DNA from: Desulfurispirillum indicum S5
GTDB taxonomy: Bacteria; Chrysiogenota; Chrysiogenetes; Chrysiogenales; Chrysiogenaceae
Direction: 5' to 3'
NCBI RefSeq assembly: GCF_000177635.2
Contig: NC_014836.1
Location: 1,252,001-1,316,000, forward strand
Length of the DNA stretch: 64,000 nucleotides
The notes under the pieces were generated by a model, which did not search any database, was not told where the DNA came from, and was given only the letters and a program-made list of their open reading frames with translations. The number at the start of each line of letters is the position of its first letter. Positions within the stretch are counted from its first letter, which is position 1. The position numbers and the translations under genes are program-made. Shown here piece after piece: positions 51,093 to 64,000 of the stretch.

Positions 51093-51740
51093 TCACCGGC
51101 ACTGCTGGCGCAGGGCGTTGATGGTGTGCCCGTAGTCCGGTGTGGAGAATATGGCGCTGCCGGCCACAAAGGTGTCAGCGCCGGCACGGTGGATCTGGGC
51201 GATGTTGTCCATGGTCACTCCTCCGTCAACTTCAATGGAAATATCCTTGCCTGTGGCGCTGATCATGGCGCGCAGACGACGGATTTTGTCCAGTGAGGCG
51301 TCGATGAACTTCTGACCGCCAAAGCCGGGGTTGACGCTCATGATAAGCACCATGTCCAGGTCGGGCAGAACTTCTTCTATCATGCACAGGGGCGTAGCGG
51401 GATTGAGGGAAACGCCAACCTGTCTGCCGAGGGCTTTTACCTGGTGGATCGCCCGGTGCAGGTGGACGTCGGATTCGGCGTGCAGGGTGATGATATCAGC
51501 TCCGGCCGCAGCGAACGCTTCAACATACTGCTGTGGGTTGGCAATCATCAGGTGAACATCAAGGGGGACGCTGGTGTGCTTTTTCAGGGAGGCGACCACG
51601 GGGGGGCCGATGGTGATGTTCGGTACGAAATGGCCATCCATGACATCCACATGGATGAGATCCGCGCCGGTGCAGCGGTCGATGTCTTCCCCAAGGCGGG
51701 CGAAGTCGGCAGAGAGAATACTTGGTGCAATGCGAATCAT
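51093..51740 (-). CDS. rpe: Ribulose-phosphate 3-epimerase
   Basis: A 215-residue TIM-barrel enzyme interconverting ribulose-5-P and xylulose-5-P. Marks: APSILSADFARLGED, HVDVMDGHFVPN, MSVNPGFGGQKF and VDGGV. The ATG at 51740 with TGAGGT upstream is chosen over the open frame to 51767. It ends 5 bases before the lipoprotein start. Confidence 0.96.
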   Translation of the reverse strand: MIRIAPSILSADFARLGEDIDRCTGADLIHVDVMDGHFVPNITIGPPVVASLKKHTSVPLDVHLMIANPQQYVEAFAAAGADIITLHAESDVHLHRAIHQVKALGRQVGVSLNPATPLCMIEEVLPDLDMVLIMSVNPGFGGQKFIDASLDKIRRLRAMISATGKDISIEVDGGVTMDNIAQIHRAGADTFVAGSAIFSTPDYGHTINALRQQCR

Positions 51741-51756
51741 GGGTACCTCAGGGGGA

Positions 51757-52485
51757 TTATTTGCCAAAGCGTCGTGTGCGTCGGGTGAAGTCCTCCAGCG
51801 CCGCTGCCATTTCCGTTTCAGTGAAGTCGGGCCACAGGGTCGGCGTGAAATACAGTTCGCTGTACGCGGACTGGAAGGTGAGAAAATTGCTCAAGCGCAT
51901 CTCTCCGCTGGTGCGAACAATATAATCACATTCGCCGAGCTCGGGGAAGTAGCAGTGCTCAAGGAGCGTCTGAATAGAGATATCTTCCAGCTTCATATGC
52001 CCTTGCAGAAGTTTATTGCCGATATTGCGAACGCTGTCAACAACTTCCTGTTGCCCACCATAGGAGATGGCCAGCACCAGAGTGGTGCCGGTATTGCTCG
52101 CTGAGCGTTCTTCGGCTTCCCTGATCAGGCGCACCAACTCAGACGAGAAGCGGTCAATGGTGCCGATGGCGCGGAAGCGGATATTGTTTTCCATCATGAT
52201 TGGCATCTCTTCTTCGAGATAGCTCTTGAGGGCAAGATTCAGAAATGCCACTTCGGCGGCATCGCGATTCCAGTTCTCGGTACTGAAGGCGTACAGGGTC
52301 ACATAGGGAATATGGCGACGGGCCAGGTAGGTGACGATGGTGCGAGCCACCTCCATGCCCCTGGCGTGTCCTTCAATGCGCTCCATACCTCGCTGCTGCG
52401 CCCAGCGCCCGTTTCCATCCATGATGATACCCAGGTGGCGTGGGAGGGTCTCGCGGTCGTGATGTGGCTCAGGGGTGGTATTCAA
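51757..52485 (-). CDS. uppS: Undecaprenyl diphosphate synthase (isoprenyl transferase)
   Basis: A 242-residue cis-prenyltransferase making the C55 carrier lipid precursor; UppP (9.7 kb) acts on the same lipid. Marks: MDGNGRWA at 22-29 with catalytic D23, the ARRHIPYVTLYAFSTENW segment and RTSGEMRLSNFLTFQSAY. First gene of uppS-rpe-lipoprotein-flgH-flgI. Confidence 0.95.
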   Translation of the reverse strand: MNTTPEPHHDRETLPRHLGIIMDGNGRWAQQRGMERIEGHARGMEVARTIVTYLARRHIPYVTLYAFSTENWNRDAAEVAFLNLALKSYLEEEMPIMMENNIRFRAIGTIDRFSSELVRLIREAEERSASNTGTTLVLAISYGGQQEVVDSVRNIGNKLLQGHMKLEDISIQTLLEHCYFPELGECDYIVRTSGEMRLSNFLTFQSAYSELYFTPTLWPDFTETEMAAALEDFTRRTRRFGK

Positions 52486-52529
52486 TGGAGTGTCCTTCGC
52501 GTGGAGTGGTCAAATGGGATTCAAGGGCT

Positions 52530-52559
52530 TATGTAACTGCTTTGACGCAGTGTTGTCAA
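52530..52559 (-). promoter_or_regulatory. Sigma-70-type promoter of uppS operon
   Basis: On the minus strand TTGACA (52559-52554), 18-base spacer, TACATA (52535-52530); it lies 44 bases before uppS. It separates mltA from the uppS-flgI run. Confidence 0.65.
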
Positions 52560-52578
52560 CTGTTAGCCTGATGCGTGG

Positions 52579-53742
52579 TCAGGGCCCCGGCTGCTTCGGC
52601 AGGAAGATATAGAGATTTCCCTGCTCTTTCATGTGACCTGCCAGCAGTTCCGCATCCTGACCGAATCCGAAGAACAGGTCAATGCGGGCCGGCCCCTTGA
52701 TGGCGGCCCCGCGATCCTGGGCTACAGTCAGGATTGTGATGGGCTCGTCGCTGAGCGGGTTCCTGGTCTGGAGAAACACCGGAGTGCCTGTGGGGATAGA
52801 GGCGGGGTCGGTTGCCACCGACCGCCAGGGGGTGAGCACGACACCGGCACTGCCGAGGGGGCTGCGCAGCGGGTCAAGTTCGCGGAAGAAGATATAACGC
52901 GGGTTGTGGTGCAGCAACGGCATGCTGCGCTCCGGGTTCTGCCTGAGCCAGGCTCTGATGGCCTGCATTGATATCTCTTCACGGCTGATGGCTCCTTCGT
53001 CGATCAGAACCCTGCCGATGGAGCGATAGGGGTGCCCGTTATGGTCGGCAAATCCTACGGACACAAAAGATCCATCGGTCAGCTGAATTCGTCCGGAGCC
53101 CTGTACGTGAAGGAAGAAGAGGTCGACGGGGTCAGCGACCCAGGCGATGGGTTGAGGGGTGCGCGCCTTGCCCTGGTCAATGTCCCGGCGCGTCCAGTAG
53201 GGCAGAACACGCCGGTTTTCCAGGCGTCCCCGCGGGTCGGTCCCCTGAACCTGGACGCCCAGTTCAATCCGCAGCATATCTTCGGGCACTCTGTGTACCG
53301 GATAGCGGAAGTGGTCGCTGGACGTGAGGCTGCCTTGCAGCAGGGGTTCATAGTAGCCGGTGATCAAGGTGCGGGACTGCGCGGCGGCGGGATTGACACG
53401 GTACGGCTCGAAGTGCTCGTGCAGGAAGGCGAGGATACGTCGCTGATCCATGTTCTGGCTGGAGGTGGCCTGGCAGGTGTGGGTCCAGTCGCTGCGGTCG
53501 GTTTGCACCTGCTGACAGGTGCGAATAAACGCCTGCCAGAATTCCTTCAGATTGTCATCCGCAAGGCCGCTCAGTTCATTCCAGGTGGATTTTTTGAGCA
53601 GTGGTGGCTCCTGGGGTGCCTTGAGGGTGCAACCTGTGAGAAAAAGAGCCAGCAGAAAAAGAAAGAAAAATATCAGGAGGTTTTTCGTGAAATGAAGGAG
53701 AACAGAACATCTTTTCGATTTACGGGCTGCTGTGGAAGTCAG
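52579..53742 (-). CDS. mltA: Membrane-bound lytic transglycosylase A, non-standard start
   Basis: A lytic transglycosylase that cleaves peptidoglycan to anhydromuropeptides. The usual open frame from GTG 53508 gives 309 residues with YYEPLLQGS, VQGSGRIQLTDG and the 3D-type tail (VAQDRGAAIKGPARIDLFFG). Upstream of that GTG the frame continues without stop and encodes typical MltA N-terminal sequence (W-N-E-L-S-G-L-A-D-D) and a lipoprotein signal with lipobox LTGC, so the GTG is not the true start. No ATG, GTG or TTG exists in frame before the stop at 53757-53755. A CTG at 53742 with AAGGGGA 7 bases upstream is the best candidate and gives 387 residues with lipid Cys38. A sequence error is the alternative. 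Confidence 0.8.
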   Translation of the reverse strand: MTSTAARKSKRCSVLLHFTKNLLIFFFLFLLALFLTGCTLKAPQEPPLLKKSTWNELSGLADDNLKEFWQAFIRTCQQVQTDRSDWTHTCQATSSQNMDQRRILAFLHEHFEPYRVNPAAAQSRTLITGYYEPLLQGSLTSSDHFRYPVHRVPEDMLRIELGVQVQGTDPRGRLENRRVLPYWTRRDIDQGKARTPQPIAWVADPVDLFFLHVQGSGRIQLTDGSFVSVGFADHNGHPYRSIGRVLIDEGAISREEISMQAIRAWLRQNPERSMPLLHHNPRYIFFRELDPLRSPLGSAGVVLTPWRSVATDPASIPTGTPVFLQTRNPLSDEPITILTVAQDRGAAIKGPARIDLFFGFGQDAELLAGHMKEQGNLYIFLPKQPGP

Positions 53743-53906
53743 TTTGCTATCCCCTTAGTTTCAAGGTGTTTTCATTTGTGAATTGGTTGATTTTCAGCCG
53801 ATATTGCTTGCATTTTGCCATGTTACTTTATACATAGTAATGCTGTTTTGGAGATTTTTTATAACACATATAACCAAAAATTTTGAGAAATGGAAGTTGC
53901 GGAACT
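53743..53906. other. AT-rich divergent region between mltA and mrp
   Basis: 164 bases, markedly more AT-rich than its surroundings, without a gene. TTATAC/TATACA near 53829-53836 may be a -10 for the mrp operon, but the spacing to TTGCTT or TTGCAT upstream is not ideal. Confidence 0.35.
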
Positions 53907-56732
53907 ATGAGTTTACCACTGATTCCTCTGCTGCCTCTCCTGGGGGCCATCATACCCCCGCTGTTTCAGAGTCGAAATGCCAATGCCATCAGTGCCGGTG
54001 TTATCGCGGCTTTGTCACTGTTGCTGCTCCTGCTTCACGCGCCAGCAGTATTTTCCGGTGAAATGCCTCTGGTCAGCTGGAGCTGGGTTCCGGCCATCGG
54101 CCTGAACTTTGCCTTCCGTGTCAGCGGTTTCGGCTTTTTCTTTGCCTTTCTCATCCTTTTTATCGGCCTGCTGATCATCCTCTATGCCCGTTATTACATC
54201 AGCGCTGAAGATCCCATGGGGCGTTTCTACAGTTACCTGCTCCTTTTCATGGGCTCCATGCTGGGGATCGTCCTCTCCGAAAACCTGATTCTGCTGGTAA
54301 TGTTCTGGGAACTTACCAGTATCAGCTCCTTTCTGCTGATCGGCTTCTGGAGCTACCGCACCGATGCCCGTGAGGGCGCGCGCATGGCTCTGGTCATTAC
54401 CGGTGCCGGTGGGCTGGCCATGCTGGCGGGATTCATCCTGCTGGGCAACATGGTGGGCAGTTTTGAACTGACCGATGTCCTGGCTGCAAAAGACATTGTG
54501 CATGCCCACCCCCTCTATCCGGTTATGCTGATTCTGGTGCTGCTGGGTGCTTTTACCAAGTCGGCCCAGTTCCCCTTCCAGTTCTGGTTACCCCACGCCA
54601 TGGCGGCTCCCACCCCTGTCAGCGCCTACCTGCACTCGGCAACCATGGTCAAGGCCGGGGTTTTCCTGCTGGCCCTGCTCTTCCCCGTGCTTTCCGGTAG
54701 CTCACTGTGGTTTTATATTGTCACTCCCGTCGGTCTGGCGACCCTTATGTTCGCTGCCTACATGGCCATTTTTAAAGATGACCTCAAGGGCCTGCTGGCC
54801 TATTCCACAGTCAGCCACCTGGGCCTGATCACCTTGCTGCTGGGCCTTGGCAGCCCCCTGGCGGCCTTCACGGCGGTGTTCCATATTCTCAACCATGCTA
54901 CCTTCAAGGCCGGGCTCTTTATGCTGGCCGGTATCATTGACCATGAAACCGGAACCCGTGACATGAAGAAACTGGCAGGCCTCTGGAAGTATATGCCTAT
55001 TACTGGCACGCTGGTTATGGTTGGCTGCGCCTCCATGGCCGGGGTTCCCTTGTTTAACGGGTTCCTGAGCAAGGAGATGTTCCTGGCGGAAACCCTGGAA
55101 CCGAACCTCTTTGGCGCAGCTTCCTGGATTGTTCCCCTGGGGGCGACCCTGGCGGCGATCTTCGCCGTGGCCTACTCTATCCGTATGGTGCATGACGTGT
55201 TCTTCAATGGCGAAGCACAGGATTTGCCCAAAAAGCCCCATGAGCCACCCCACGGCATGCGTCTGCCTTCGGAAATCCTGATGGTGCTCTGTGTGGCCGT
55301 CGGCCTCTTCCCGGCCCTGCTGGCCGGCCCCATCGTCAATGTCGCAGCCGGAAGCATCCTGGGTGCCGACTTGCCCGACTACCATATTGCCATCTGGCAT
55401 GGCTTCAACATGGCCCTGGCTCTGAGTGTCATCGCCCTGATCGGTGGTGCCGCCCTCTACTTCTTCAAGTCCAAGGCCTTTGATGCCCACACCTGGTTTT
55501 ACGCCCACTTTGACGGCAAGGGGAATTTTGAGGCCATTATCAGCGCCCTGGTAAAAGGCTCGCGCTGGATTACCGGAACTCTGGAAAACGGCTCATTGCA
55601 GCGATATCTGGCGCTGCTGGTCGGTTCAGCCCTGGTACTGGGAATCAGTCCATTTCTCGGCAGCGCTTCACCGTTCCTCGGCACACTCCCCATGACGGCC
55701 ATTGATCCGGTGACACTGGTAATGGCTCTTGTGCTTGTGGTCGCGACGGTGGCCACGGTCCTGACCCATCACAATCGCATTGTGTCGCTGCTGATGCTCA
55801 GCACCGTGGGTCTGCTGGTCTCGCTGGCCTTTGTGCGCTTCTCGGCGCCGGATCTGGCCCTGACCCAGATCTCTGTAGAGGTGGTGACGATTATTCTGCT
55901 GTTGATGGCACTGCACATGCTGCCCCGCACGACACCCCAGGAGTCCACTCCCGCCAGGCGCTGGCGTGATATCACCATCGCCGGCCTCTCGGGCGCGGGT
56001 ATTGCCGCTCTGATGATGGCTTTCTTTACCCGCCCCTACGACACCATTGCGACCTACTTCTTGGAAAACAGTAAACCTTTGGGAGGCGGCACCAATGTGG
56101 TGAACGTCATCCTGGTTGACTTCCGGGGCTTTGATACTCTGGGGGAAATTGCGGTTCTTGGCATAGCCGGCCTTGGCATTTACGCCATGCTGCATGGCCT
56201 TGAGCTCAAAGCGCCCCGTACCGACGCCTTTGGCCGCTTCTGGTCTTCCGATCGCTTCCCAGTTATTCTGGCATCCATCACCAGACCGCTGCTGCCACTG
56301 GCGCTGCTGTTCTCCTTCTACATCTTCCTGCGTGGTCACAATGAGCCAGGTGGCGGCTTTATCGCCGGATTGATTACGGCGACCGTCCTTATCCTGCAGT
56401 ATATTGCCAGTGGTATTGTCTGGACGCGTCCGCGCCTGAACTTTGACAACCATATCATCATGGCCTGGGGTCTGCTGATTGCCGTGCTGACGGGCCTTGG
56501 CAGCTGGGTCGTGGGCTATCCCTTCCTTACCAGCTCCTTCACCTACCTGACCTGGCCGCTGGTGGGTACCTTTGAAGTGGCCAGCGCCATCGCCTTTGAC
56601 ATCGGCGTGTACCTGACGGTTATCGGCTCGGTGCTGCTGATCCTGGTAAAACTCGGGTCCATGAACTCTCCTGATGCCATGACCGTCTCAACGGCTGCCA
56701 TGGAACAGGAAAAAGGAAAGAGGAGCAACTGA
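53907..56732 (+). CDS. mrpA: Mrp antiporter subunit A fused to subunit B
   Basis: A 941-residue inner-membrane protein. The first 500 residues are NuoL/MrpA-like (FWELTSISSFLLIGFW, KSAQFPFQFWLPHAMAAPTPVSAYLHSATMVKAG pattern). DUF4040-type helices follow (FSAPDLALTQISVEV). The last 150 residues form an MnhB domain (FYIFLRGHNEPGGGFIAGL), so B is fused to A, as in rhizobial PhaAB. Mrp complexes exchange internal Na+ (or K+) for H+ using the proton-motive force, giving alkali and salt tolerance. ATG 53907 is taken; a TTG at 53883 is possible. Its stop overlaps mrpC by 1 base. Confidence 0.93.
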   Translation: MSLPLIPLLPLLGAIIPPLFQSRNANAISAGVIAALSLLLLLLHAPAVFSGEMPLVSWSWVPAIGLNFAFRVSGFGFFFAFLILFIGLLIILYARYYISAEDPMGRFYSYLLLFMGSMLGIVLSENLILLVMFWELTSISSFLLIGFWSYRTDAREGARMALVITGAGGLAMLAGFILLGNMVGSFELTDVLAAKDIVHAHPLYPVMLILVLLGAFTKSAQFPFQFWLPHAMAAPTPVSAYLHSATMVKAGVFLLALLFPVLSGSSLWFYIVTPVGLATLMFAAYMAIFKDDLKGLLAYSTVSHLGLITLLLGLGSPLAAFTAVFHILNHATFKAGLFMLAGIIDHETGTRDMKKLAGLWKYMPITGTLVMVGCASMAGVPLFNGFLSKEMFLAETLEPNLFGAASWIVPLGATLAAIFAVAYSIRMVHDVFFNGEAQDLPKKPHEPPHGMRLPSEILMVLCVAVGLFPALLAGPIVNVAAGSILGADLPDYHIAIWHGFNMALALSVIALIGGAALYFFKSKAFDAHTWFYAHFDGKGNFEAIISALVKGSRWITGTLENGSLQRYLALLVGSALVLGISPFLGSASPFLGTLPMTAIDPVTLVMALVLVVATVATVLTHHNRIVSLLMLSTVGLLVSLAFVRFSAPDLALTQISVEVVTIILLLMALHMLPRTTPQESTPARRWRDITIAGLSGAGIAALMMAFFTRPYDTIATYFLENSKPLGGGTNVVNVILVDFRGFDTLGEIAVLGIAGLGIYAMLHGLELKAPRTDAFGRFWSSDRFPVILASITRPLLPLALLFSFYIFLRGHNEPGGGFIAGLITATVLILQYIASGIVWTRPRLNFDNHIIMAWGLLIAVLTGLGSWVVGYPFLTSSFTYLTWPLVGTFEVASAIAFDIGVYLTVIGSVLLILVKLGSMNSPDAMTVSTAAMEQEKGKRSN

Positions 56733-62245: not shown

Positions 62246-64000
62246 TTACAGCATGTCTTTAACCCTCAGGATAAAGCGCGCTCCGAACTCCGTGTTCTCT
62301 GCCATAACTGAGCCTTGATAGCGGTCGACGATAATGCGTTGCACCAGATAGAGGCCGAGCCCTTTATCGCGACTCATGAAAGCGGTGGTGACATACGGAT
62401 CAAACACCCTGGGCAGTATCTCCGCGCGGATTCCACCTGCGTTATCTTCAATTGTAATGATGGTTTCGGCACCCTGGCTTTCGGCGGCGATCATGATCTG
62501 GGCTCCTTCCAGATGACGCTCATCAACGATGTTTGCGACATTTTCCAGCAGCTTCAGGAAAATCTCCACCCAGTCGGAACGACATGCGCGCAGGGTCAGG
62601 CCAGGATCAATGGTACAGCAGACCTCGATACCTCGCCCACGCAGGTGGCCGAGCAGCAGCTCTTTTGCTTCTTCGCACAGATCCCTCAAGGCGTAGGATG
62701 CAGGTATATCCTTGGCATCGTGAAGGCCGGTGAAGCGGTCAATGATAGTGGAGAGGTCTTCAAGCTGTCCCATGATGCCATTGACCCATTTTTTTACAAA
62801 GAGTCGTTGCTGGTGATCCAGTTCAAGTTCATCTTCAATCTGCTGAGCCAGCAGTCCGATGACATTCAGAGGCTGGCGCCACTGGTGAGCCAGGTTGACC
62901 AGCAATTGCAGCAGGGCTTCCTTGCGACGCTGCTCATAGATGATAAGATCTTGCTGGCGCACCTGTTCGATACCCTGTCTGATTTGCTCGTGCAGCTCTT
63001 CTTCGTGGCGTTTGCGCTCGGTGATATCGGTGAAGAGGGTCGCGAACTGCCCTTTGCCGGTATTGAATGCCCGCACATGGAAGTGCCGGCCAAGCTCGAC
63101 GGAGTACTGGTCAAACACCTTCTCTTCCCCTGACAGGGCCACCCCGGCATAACACTGAATCCATATATCCTCTATTTCGGGCATTATTTCGCGGATGGTT
63201 CTGCCGACGACATCCATGCCTTTGAGCCCGGTCAGCTGTTCAAAAGCAGGGTTTACCGTCAGAAAGCGGTAATCTATAGCGGTTCCCTGTTCGTTGCACA
63301 GCATTTCATGCAGGGCAAACCCGTCGAGCATGCGCTGAAAGAGCATGCGGTAGTGCTGCTCAGCTCGCCGGTGTTCGGTGATGTCCCGGCTGATGGTCAG
63401 CACGGAGCTGACAGTGCCATCGGCGTTAAACTCCGGCACCAGCCGCCAGTTATACTGGCGGTATCCCAATGCTCCGTCATAGGAATACTCCAGTTCATTT
63501 GCCTGGCCACTGGCGAAGACCTGCATGACGGCTTCATGCCATGCGCGCGGCAAGCCAAGGTCCATATGGGTTTTTCCCAGGAGGCTAGCTGGTTCGTGGG
63601 CGCCTGTCAGGGCGATATTGTCGGAGGCGAATACGTGGCGGCCTTCGTGGTCGAAACGCAAGACAATATCCGGCAGTCCGCTTACCAGGGCCCGATAGGT
63701 TTCTTCACTCTCCTGAAGCTTCTGCCTGGCCAGGTACTCCTCAGTGACATCACGGAAGACCAGCACCGCTCCACTGACGGTACCCGCTTTGTCGCGAATG
63801 GGGGCGCAGCTGTCAGCGATCTGGTATTCTGTTCCATCGCGGGAAATAAGCACAGTGTGGTTGGCAAGGCCAACAATGACTCCCTCACGGAGTGAGCGTT
63901 CTACCGGATTGAAAGCCGTCTGTCGGGTTGTGGCGTGGACAATGTGAAAAATTTCTGTGATGGGATGTCCGATCGCCTGTTCCTCATGCCAGCCTGTCAG
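62246..64000 (-). CDS. Multi-PAS histidine kinase, 5' end outside window
   Basis: The frame is open to the window edge: codons upstream of the apparent GTG at 63853 encode a clear PAS continuation (ERSLREGVIVGLANHTV, then SRDGTEY). About 584 C-terminal residues are visible with three PAS domains (edge to about position 63730; about 63715-63390; about 63350-63010), a coiled coil, HisKA with AHQWRQPLN, and a HATPase (LLENVANIV, DNAGGI, DKGLGLYLV). The N box keeps its first Asn but is unusual. Same kinase-core family as the three at 1.4-9.6 kb. Confidence 0.9.
   Translation of the reverse strand: MTGWHEEQAIGHPITEIFHIVHATTRQTAFNPVERSLREGVIVGLANHTVLISRDGTEYQIADSCAPIRDKAGTVSGAVLVFRDVTEEYLARQKLQESEETYRALVSGLPDIVLRFDHEGRHVFASDNIALTGAHEPASLLGKTHMDLGLPRAWHEAVMQVFASGQANELEYSYDGALGYRQYNWRLVPEFNADGTVSSVLTISRDITEHRRAEQHYRMLFQRMLDGFALHEMLCNEQGTAIDYRFLTVNPAFEQLTGLKGMDVVGRTIREIMPEIEDIWIQCYAGVALSGEEKVFDQYSVELGRHFHVRAFNTGKGQFATLFTDITERKRHEEELHEQIRQGIEQVRQQDLIIYEQRRKEALLQLLVNLAHQWRQPLNVIGLLAQQIEDELELDHQQRLFVKKWVNGIMGQLEDLSTIIDRFTGLHDAKDIPASYALRDLCEEAKELLLGHLRGRGIEVCCTIDPGLTLRACRSDWVEIFLKLLENVANIVDERHLEGAQIMIAAESQGAETIITIEDNAGGIRAEILPRVFDPYVTTAFMSRDKGLGLYLVQRIIVDRYQGSVMAENTEFGARFILRVKDML

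Follow-up and report, generated by a model that had tools for sequence, protein, structure and literature searches.

A candidate CTG start codon in the lytic transglycosylase gene mltA of Desulfurispirillum indicum S5

The mltA locus and its product

The window, the whole stretch of DNA analysed here, spans 64,000 nucleotides (positions 1252001-1316000) of the single 2,928,377-base contig of Desulfurispirillum indicum S5 (phylum Chrysiogenota), and the coordinates below refer to it. On the minus strand a frame is open from 53754 (GGG) to 52582, between a TAA at 53757-53755 and a TGA at 52581-52579. Read from a CTG at 53742, the coding sequence (mltA, 52579..53742, minus strand) specifies 387 amino acids before the TGA stop and was assigned from its translation and Pfam matches. 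Residues 126-287 match the MltA-specific domain PF03562 with 208.1 bits (cut-off 24.3), and residues 307-380 match the 3D domain PF06725 with 73.7 bits (cut-off 23.8), the conserved Asp being present. PF03562 is matched nowhere else in the D. indicum genome. The score against the NCBIfam equivalog NF008366 (murein transglycosylase A) is 157.3 bits, under the cut-off of 242; by that model the protein, a member of the Pfam family, does not qualify as an equivalog of its E. coli counterpart.

Asp343 (52714..52716, minus strand), Gly345 and Asp355 are retained, as they are in 80 of the 80 aligned relatives described below, and Asp343 aligns with the corresponding Asp of PDB 7esj. We take Asp343 to be the active-site Asp by analogy with Asp308 of E. 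coli MltA. The product is predicted to be a membrane-bound lytic murein transglycosylase A, which would cleave peptidoglycan. It has both domains, the lipoprotein signal and the conserved Asp in common with the MltA family (7esj, 6qk4, GNA33 2g5d and 2ae0), but differs from it in lacking a canonical start codon, in the replacement of Trp60 by Leu and in falling under the NF008366 cut-off.

Divergent from mltA on the plus strand (53907-56732) is a gene whose product, 941 amino acids as read, joins PF00361, MbhD, MbhE and MnhB in one protein and appears to be a fused Mrp/Mbh-type antiporter subunit. The intergenic region between the two genes (53743-53906) contains a promoter-like pair, TTGCTT-N17-TTTATA, which faces the antiporter gene and is common to the related genome G002 (see below). 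The pair was not reported by a stricter consensus promoter scan, and a scan of 52300-54000 for promoters and terminators found none. Downstream of mltA and in the same direction lies a gene for undecaprenyl diphosphate synthase (PF01255; 51757-52485, minus strand), which appears to start at a non-ATG codon, a TTG behind GAAGGA.

The coding segment upstream of GTG 53508

No ATG, GTG or TTG is found in frame between the TAA at 53757-53755 and a GTG at 53508 (53506..53508, minus strand), which is the first canonical start codon and is followed by an ATG at 53451. The GTG is codon 79, and 78 codons separate it from CTG 53742; the earlier note had reported both the missing start and the MltA-like character of these codons, and was right on both counts. 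The signal sequence is LTSTAARKSKRCSVLLHFTKNLLIFFFLFLLALFLTGC, with Cys38 as the lipobox Cys. Residues 1-37 (53632..53742, minus strand) can be read as a signal peptide with a basic n-region, a hydrophobic run and LTG before Cys38 (53629..53631, minus strand), the predicted lipidation site. Cys38 aligns with a Cys in 80 of the 80 relatives, which upholds the LTGC lipoprotein signal that the earlier note had described; this signal holds only if translation starts before the lipobox. Cys76 (53515..53517, minus strand) is likewise found in 80 of 80, and W54, L57 and W69 are conserved in 69, 70 and 72 of the 80, respectively. Because of this conservation we regard the segment upstream of GTG 53508 as real protein. 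Downstream of the GTG, Cys90 is kept in all 80 relatives, the same as Cys76, and the two possibly form a structural disulfide of this MltA branch. Residue 60 (53565-53563) is Leu in the window protein and Trp in 80 of the 80 relatives, which could mean relaxed constraint.

The relatives were collected by a profile scan of genome contigs, in which at least 573 of the 599 matched stretches encode one; the best 80 were kept and, by record title, derive mostly from Beta- and Gammaproteobacteria. For conservation, 79 of these 80 contig loci together with the protein of G002 were aligned to the window protein, one locus (L011) being left out because its frame stops five codons past the start of the match. 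In a mechanical pattern test 76 of the best 80 relatives show a lipobox-like Cys with a canonical start 14-45 codons ahead of it. L011 is one of the four that failed. In L048 a GTG precedes the Cys, but the Cys follows FPA and lies outside the pattern; in L049 the ATG is 46 codons before the Cys, the limit being 45; and in L050 canonical starts occur only further up than 14-45 codons before the Cys.

The best two relatives of solved structure align from residue 36 (7esj) and residue 51 (6qk4) of the query, so that a start at codon 79 would lose part of the folded domain. Several other solved relatives, including E. coli MltA (2ae0, from query residue 188), align best only further in and for this reason do not inform on the N-terminus. 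A start at GTG 53508 would thus remove the signal, part of the fold, Cys76, W54 and W69, and would leave the conserved Cys90 without its probable partner. A gene-finder limited to ATG, GTG and TTG would start this gene at codon 79 or later, missing the lipoprotein signal and part of the fold.

Initiation signals and the orthologue in G002

The proposed start, CTG 53742 (53740..53742, minus strand), is preceded by the Shine-Dalgarno sequence AAGGGGA (53750..53756, minus strand), which overlaps the upstream stop TAA and is followed by the 7-nt spacer TAGCAAA. The earlier note had pointed to this site and its distance, and both are as described; the duplex energy is -8.2 kcal/mol. Six near-cognate codons occur in frame before the lipobox (CTG 53742, ACG 53688, CTG 53676, ATA 53673, CTG 53655 and CTG 53652), with energies of -8.2, 1.5, 0.1, 0.1, 0.6 and 3.0 kcal/mol, respectively, and CTG 53742 is the sole one with a Shine-Dalgarno site. 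GTG 53508 has none (+1.5 kcal/mol). Shine-Dalgarno-like sites are also present at CTG 53601 (-6.6 kcal/mol) and ATT 53526 (-5.5 kcal/mol); these codons come after the lipobox, and starting at either would therefore lose the signal. All energies are those of the duplex with a canonical anti-Shine-Dalgarno core, used because a search of the D. indicum genome for 16S rRNA, and thereby for its own anti-Shine-Dalgarno sequence, gave no match.

The background for these energies was taken from 464,000 bases (16% of the genome), consisting of the window and 20 stretches of 20 kb. In this sample 729 of 23,626 CTGs (3.1%) reach -8.2 kcal/mol. The best candidate start of each long gene (n=213) has a median of -6.5 kcal/mol, and 70 of them reach -8.2. 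Where a long gene offers just one canonical start within its first 60 codons (n=23), the median is -3.0 and one reaches -8.2, from which it follows that Shine-Dalgarno strength alone is no marker of starts in this genome. The site before CTG 53742 is accordingly supporting evidence and not proof.

Other routes into the frame were considered. ATG 53775 (53761..53775, minus strand) is in frame, is followed by three more codons and then by TGA, has no Shine-Dalgarno site (0.4 kcal/mol) and is unusable as a start; read-through of the TGA was rejected since the TAA intervenes as well. A frameshift from the out-of-frame ATG 53710 was likewise rejected, since that frame yields no signal sequence. RNA folding around the start is unremarkable in both D. 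indicum and G002 (z 0.83 and 0.99, respectively) and gives no hint of a structured leader.

Two further genomes of the family were compared: PF03562 has no match in G001 and one in G002, a member of a different genus. The G002 MltA, likewise the single one of its genome, is 50% identical to that of the window: 5 of 24 aligned residues are identical in residues 1-38, 10 of 41 in residues 39-79 and 169 of 306 beyond. The G002 gene starts at ATG, whereas the window gene has no canonical start at that place, and the G002 protein has 14 fewer residues before the lipobox Cys; the weak likeness and unequal length of this stretch count against the CTG start. As in the window, the neighbour of G002 mltA is a divergently oriented gene encoding antiporter domains (PF00361 and PF00662); the next long frame downstream of G002 mltA on its strand (394 aa, truncated by the end of the locus) is not a PF01255 gene, as judged by reading.

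An 18-mer, AAATGCAAGCAATATCGG (53798..53815, minus strand), is identical in the intergenic region of G002 and serves as a positional anchor; in 1000 base shuffles of both intergenic regions the longest common string was 12 nt. From the 18-mer to the start codon there are 55 nt in the window (CTG) and 52 nt in G002 (ATG). The window CTG is preceded by AAGGGGATAGCAAA and the G002 ATG by AAGGGAAACGCA, AAGGG being common to the two. By the similar distances and the shared AAGGG, CTG 53742 is the positional counterpart of the G002 ATG, and the comparison of starts with relatives that the earlier note had proposed provides, in this one orthologue, the strongest evidence for the CTG start. The CTG is seen in one genome, and the sample of same-family orthologues is likewise one (G002, with ATG). 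As to the 18-mer itself, it occurs exactly once in the D. indicum genome, and two similar strings differ from it at 2 and 3 positions, while the reversed control gave one match; there is thus no sign of a repeated genome-wide element. The first hexamer of the promoter-like pair TTGCTT-N17-TTTATA lies within the 18-mer, which may be part of the promoter that drives the divergent antiporter gene.

A codon-usage score, applied to the stop-to-stop frames of 100 codons or more in the same 464,000 bases, selected 275 genes. Of these, seven have a coding-like stretch (at least 5.9 bits) before the first canonical start, and mltA ranks third. Four of the other six have no Pfam hit, whereas the frame on the opposite strand of each has strong ones, namely a histidine kinase (L095), a sigma-54 response regulator (L102), a second histidine kinase (window 62246-63853) and a ribulose-phosphate epimerase (window 51093-51767); we therefore regard the four as shadows. 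The remaining two are a histidine-kinase protein (L089) and a rhodanese protein (L108), whose Pfam matches begin at residues 212 and 90, so that nothing indicates a missing start there. The mltA gene is thus the sole clear orphan start in the 464,000-base sample, in which there is no sign of generally used non-canonical starts. An altered anticodon stem of the initiator tRNA (G30-C40 and neighbours) was sought in the genome and not found; a tRNA-Met that is initiator-like by reading (TCGGGCTCATAACCCGA) carries the ordinary three G-C pairs (GGG/CCC anticodon stem), which speaks against relaxed start selection.

Origin of the proposed CTG start and alternative explanations

We consider it likely that mltA is an intact lipoprotein gene with genuine initiation at CTG 53742, brought about by a change at the ancestral start codon. 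The ancestor of G002 and of the genus of D. indicum most likely carried an ordinary start codon here, and the change would have left a CTG, on which the strong AAGGGGA site 7 nt upstream would place the initiator tRNA. The product would be a 387-residue precursor which, to judge from its lipobox, would undergo export, receive its lipid on Cys38 and be anchored in the envelope. Since the orthologue has its ATG at the corresponding position, this would be a well-placed case of an ATG-to-CTG change.

As starts go, this one is of a rare but known kind. CUG accounts for 0.024% of the initiation codons of bacteria, and its protein yield is 0.86% of that from AUG, both figures as quoted in PMC11497404, and the rarity of true CTG initiation that the earlier note had assumed is in keeping with the former. 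With the 2,619 protein genes that the genome report (PMC3368425) gives for D. indicum, about 0.6 CUG-start genes would be expected. Since CUG initiates poorly, probably little MltA is made, as the published measurements suggest. Known bacterial CUG-start genes likewise have a CTG with a good Shine-Dalgarno site and no canonical start before the conserved protein; set against them, the evidence for the window gene is of the comparative kind only. A CTG-start mltA is unmentioned in the titles and abstract beginnings obtained from a search of the start-codon literature, which is no proof of absence.

The same figures could be turned against a functional gene. If a mutation has removed the start codon, whether in the species or just in the strain under culture, mltA would be a practically silent early pseudogene, and a CUG efficiency of about 0.86% of AUG, together with the great rarity of reconstructed AUG-to-CUG switches (2 of 61,358; PMC5622118), is what that reading would draw upon. 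The Leu at position 60, where 80 of 80 relatives have Trp, points the same way, as does G001, which belongs to the same family and has no PF03562 match, so that mltA may be dispensable in the family. However, the 387 codons are free of stops and frameshifts, the motif residues are retained, 169 of the 306 aligned residues beyond codon 79 are identical to G002, the strong Shine-Dalgarno site is kept and the gene provides the sole PF03562 match of the genome; we hold a pseudogene to be improbable. An assembly error that masks an ordinary start was the other alternative of the earlier note. One miscalled base in the start codon would suffice, and an indel error within the short runs of 53750-53757 could put TTG 53764 in frame, but this TTG has no Shine-Dalgarno site (0.4 kcal/mol), and its frame would place the AAGGG, which in G002 precedes the start, within coding sequence. 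According to PMC3368425, moreover, the genome was finished with 454 and Illumina reads, and its genes were called with Prodigal and GenePRIMP. Illumina data at 222x served to correct base errors, for which reason a base error at the start codon is unlikely; in a genome so polished, a single wrong base exactly at this codon should be less common still than a CUG start. We therefore judge an assembly error very improbable, and of the two alternatives of the earlier note the evidence favours true CTG initiation, given the position of the G002 ATG, the strong Shine-Dalgarno site and the polished genome.

Least probable of all is a start elsewhere in the frame, at ACG 53688, CTG 53676, ATA 53673, CTG 53601 or GTG 53508, the last giving a cytoplasmic protein. 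ACG 53688 would yield a shorter and more typical signal (MKNLLIFFFLFLLALFLTGC), but ACG is absent from the NCBI table 11 start list, which includes ATA and CTG, and neither it nor CTG 53676, ATA 53673 and GTG 53508 has a Shine-Dalgarno site (1.5, 0.1, 0.1 and 1.5 kcal/mol, respectively). The Shine-Dalgarno-like sites at CTG 53601 and ATT 53526 speak for these codons; yet both, like GTG 53508, lie past the lipobox and would lose the signal that the relatives keep, and the GTG would in addition lose W54, W69 and Cys76.

Initiation at CTG 53742 remains our preferred reading; the start-codon change behind it could be selected, or it could equally be tolerated or damaging. It is doubtful that the CTG is a fixed, selected throttle, in which a strong Shine-Dalgarno site and a weak start would together hold the sole MltA low and steady or restrict it to conditions that relax start selection. 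The suggestion of the earlier note that a CTG would keep this lytic enzyme at a low level fits the CUG efficiency quoted in PMC11497404, and may hold here.

By protein search MltA occurs in one of the 49 other genomes of the phylum (G002 among G001-G049, some of which are incomplete). This distribution, taken together with the mostly Beta- and Gammaproteobacterial origin of the best 80 relatives, suggests a possible horizontal acquisition of mltA in an ancestor of the two genera of the family.
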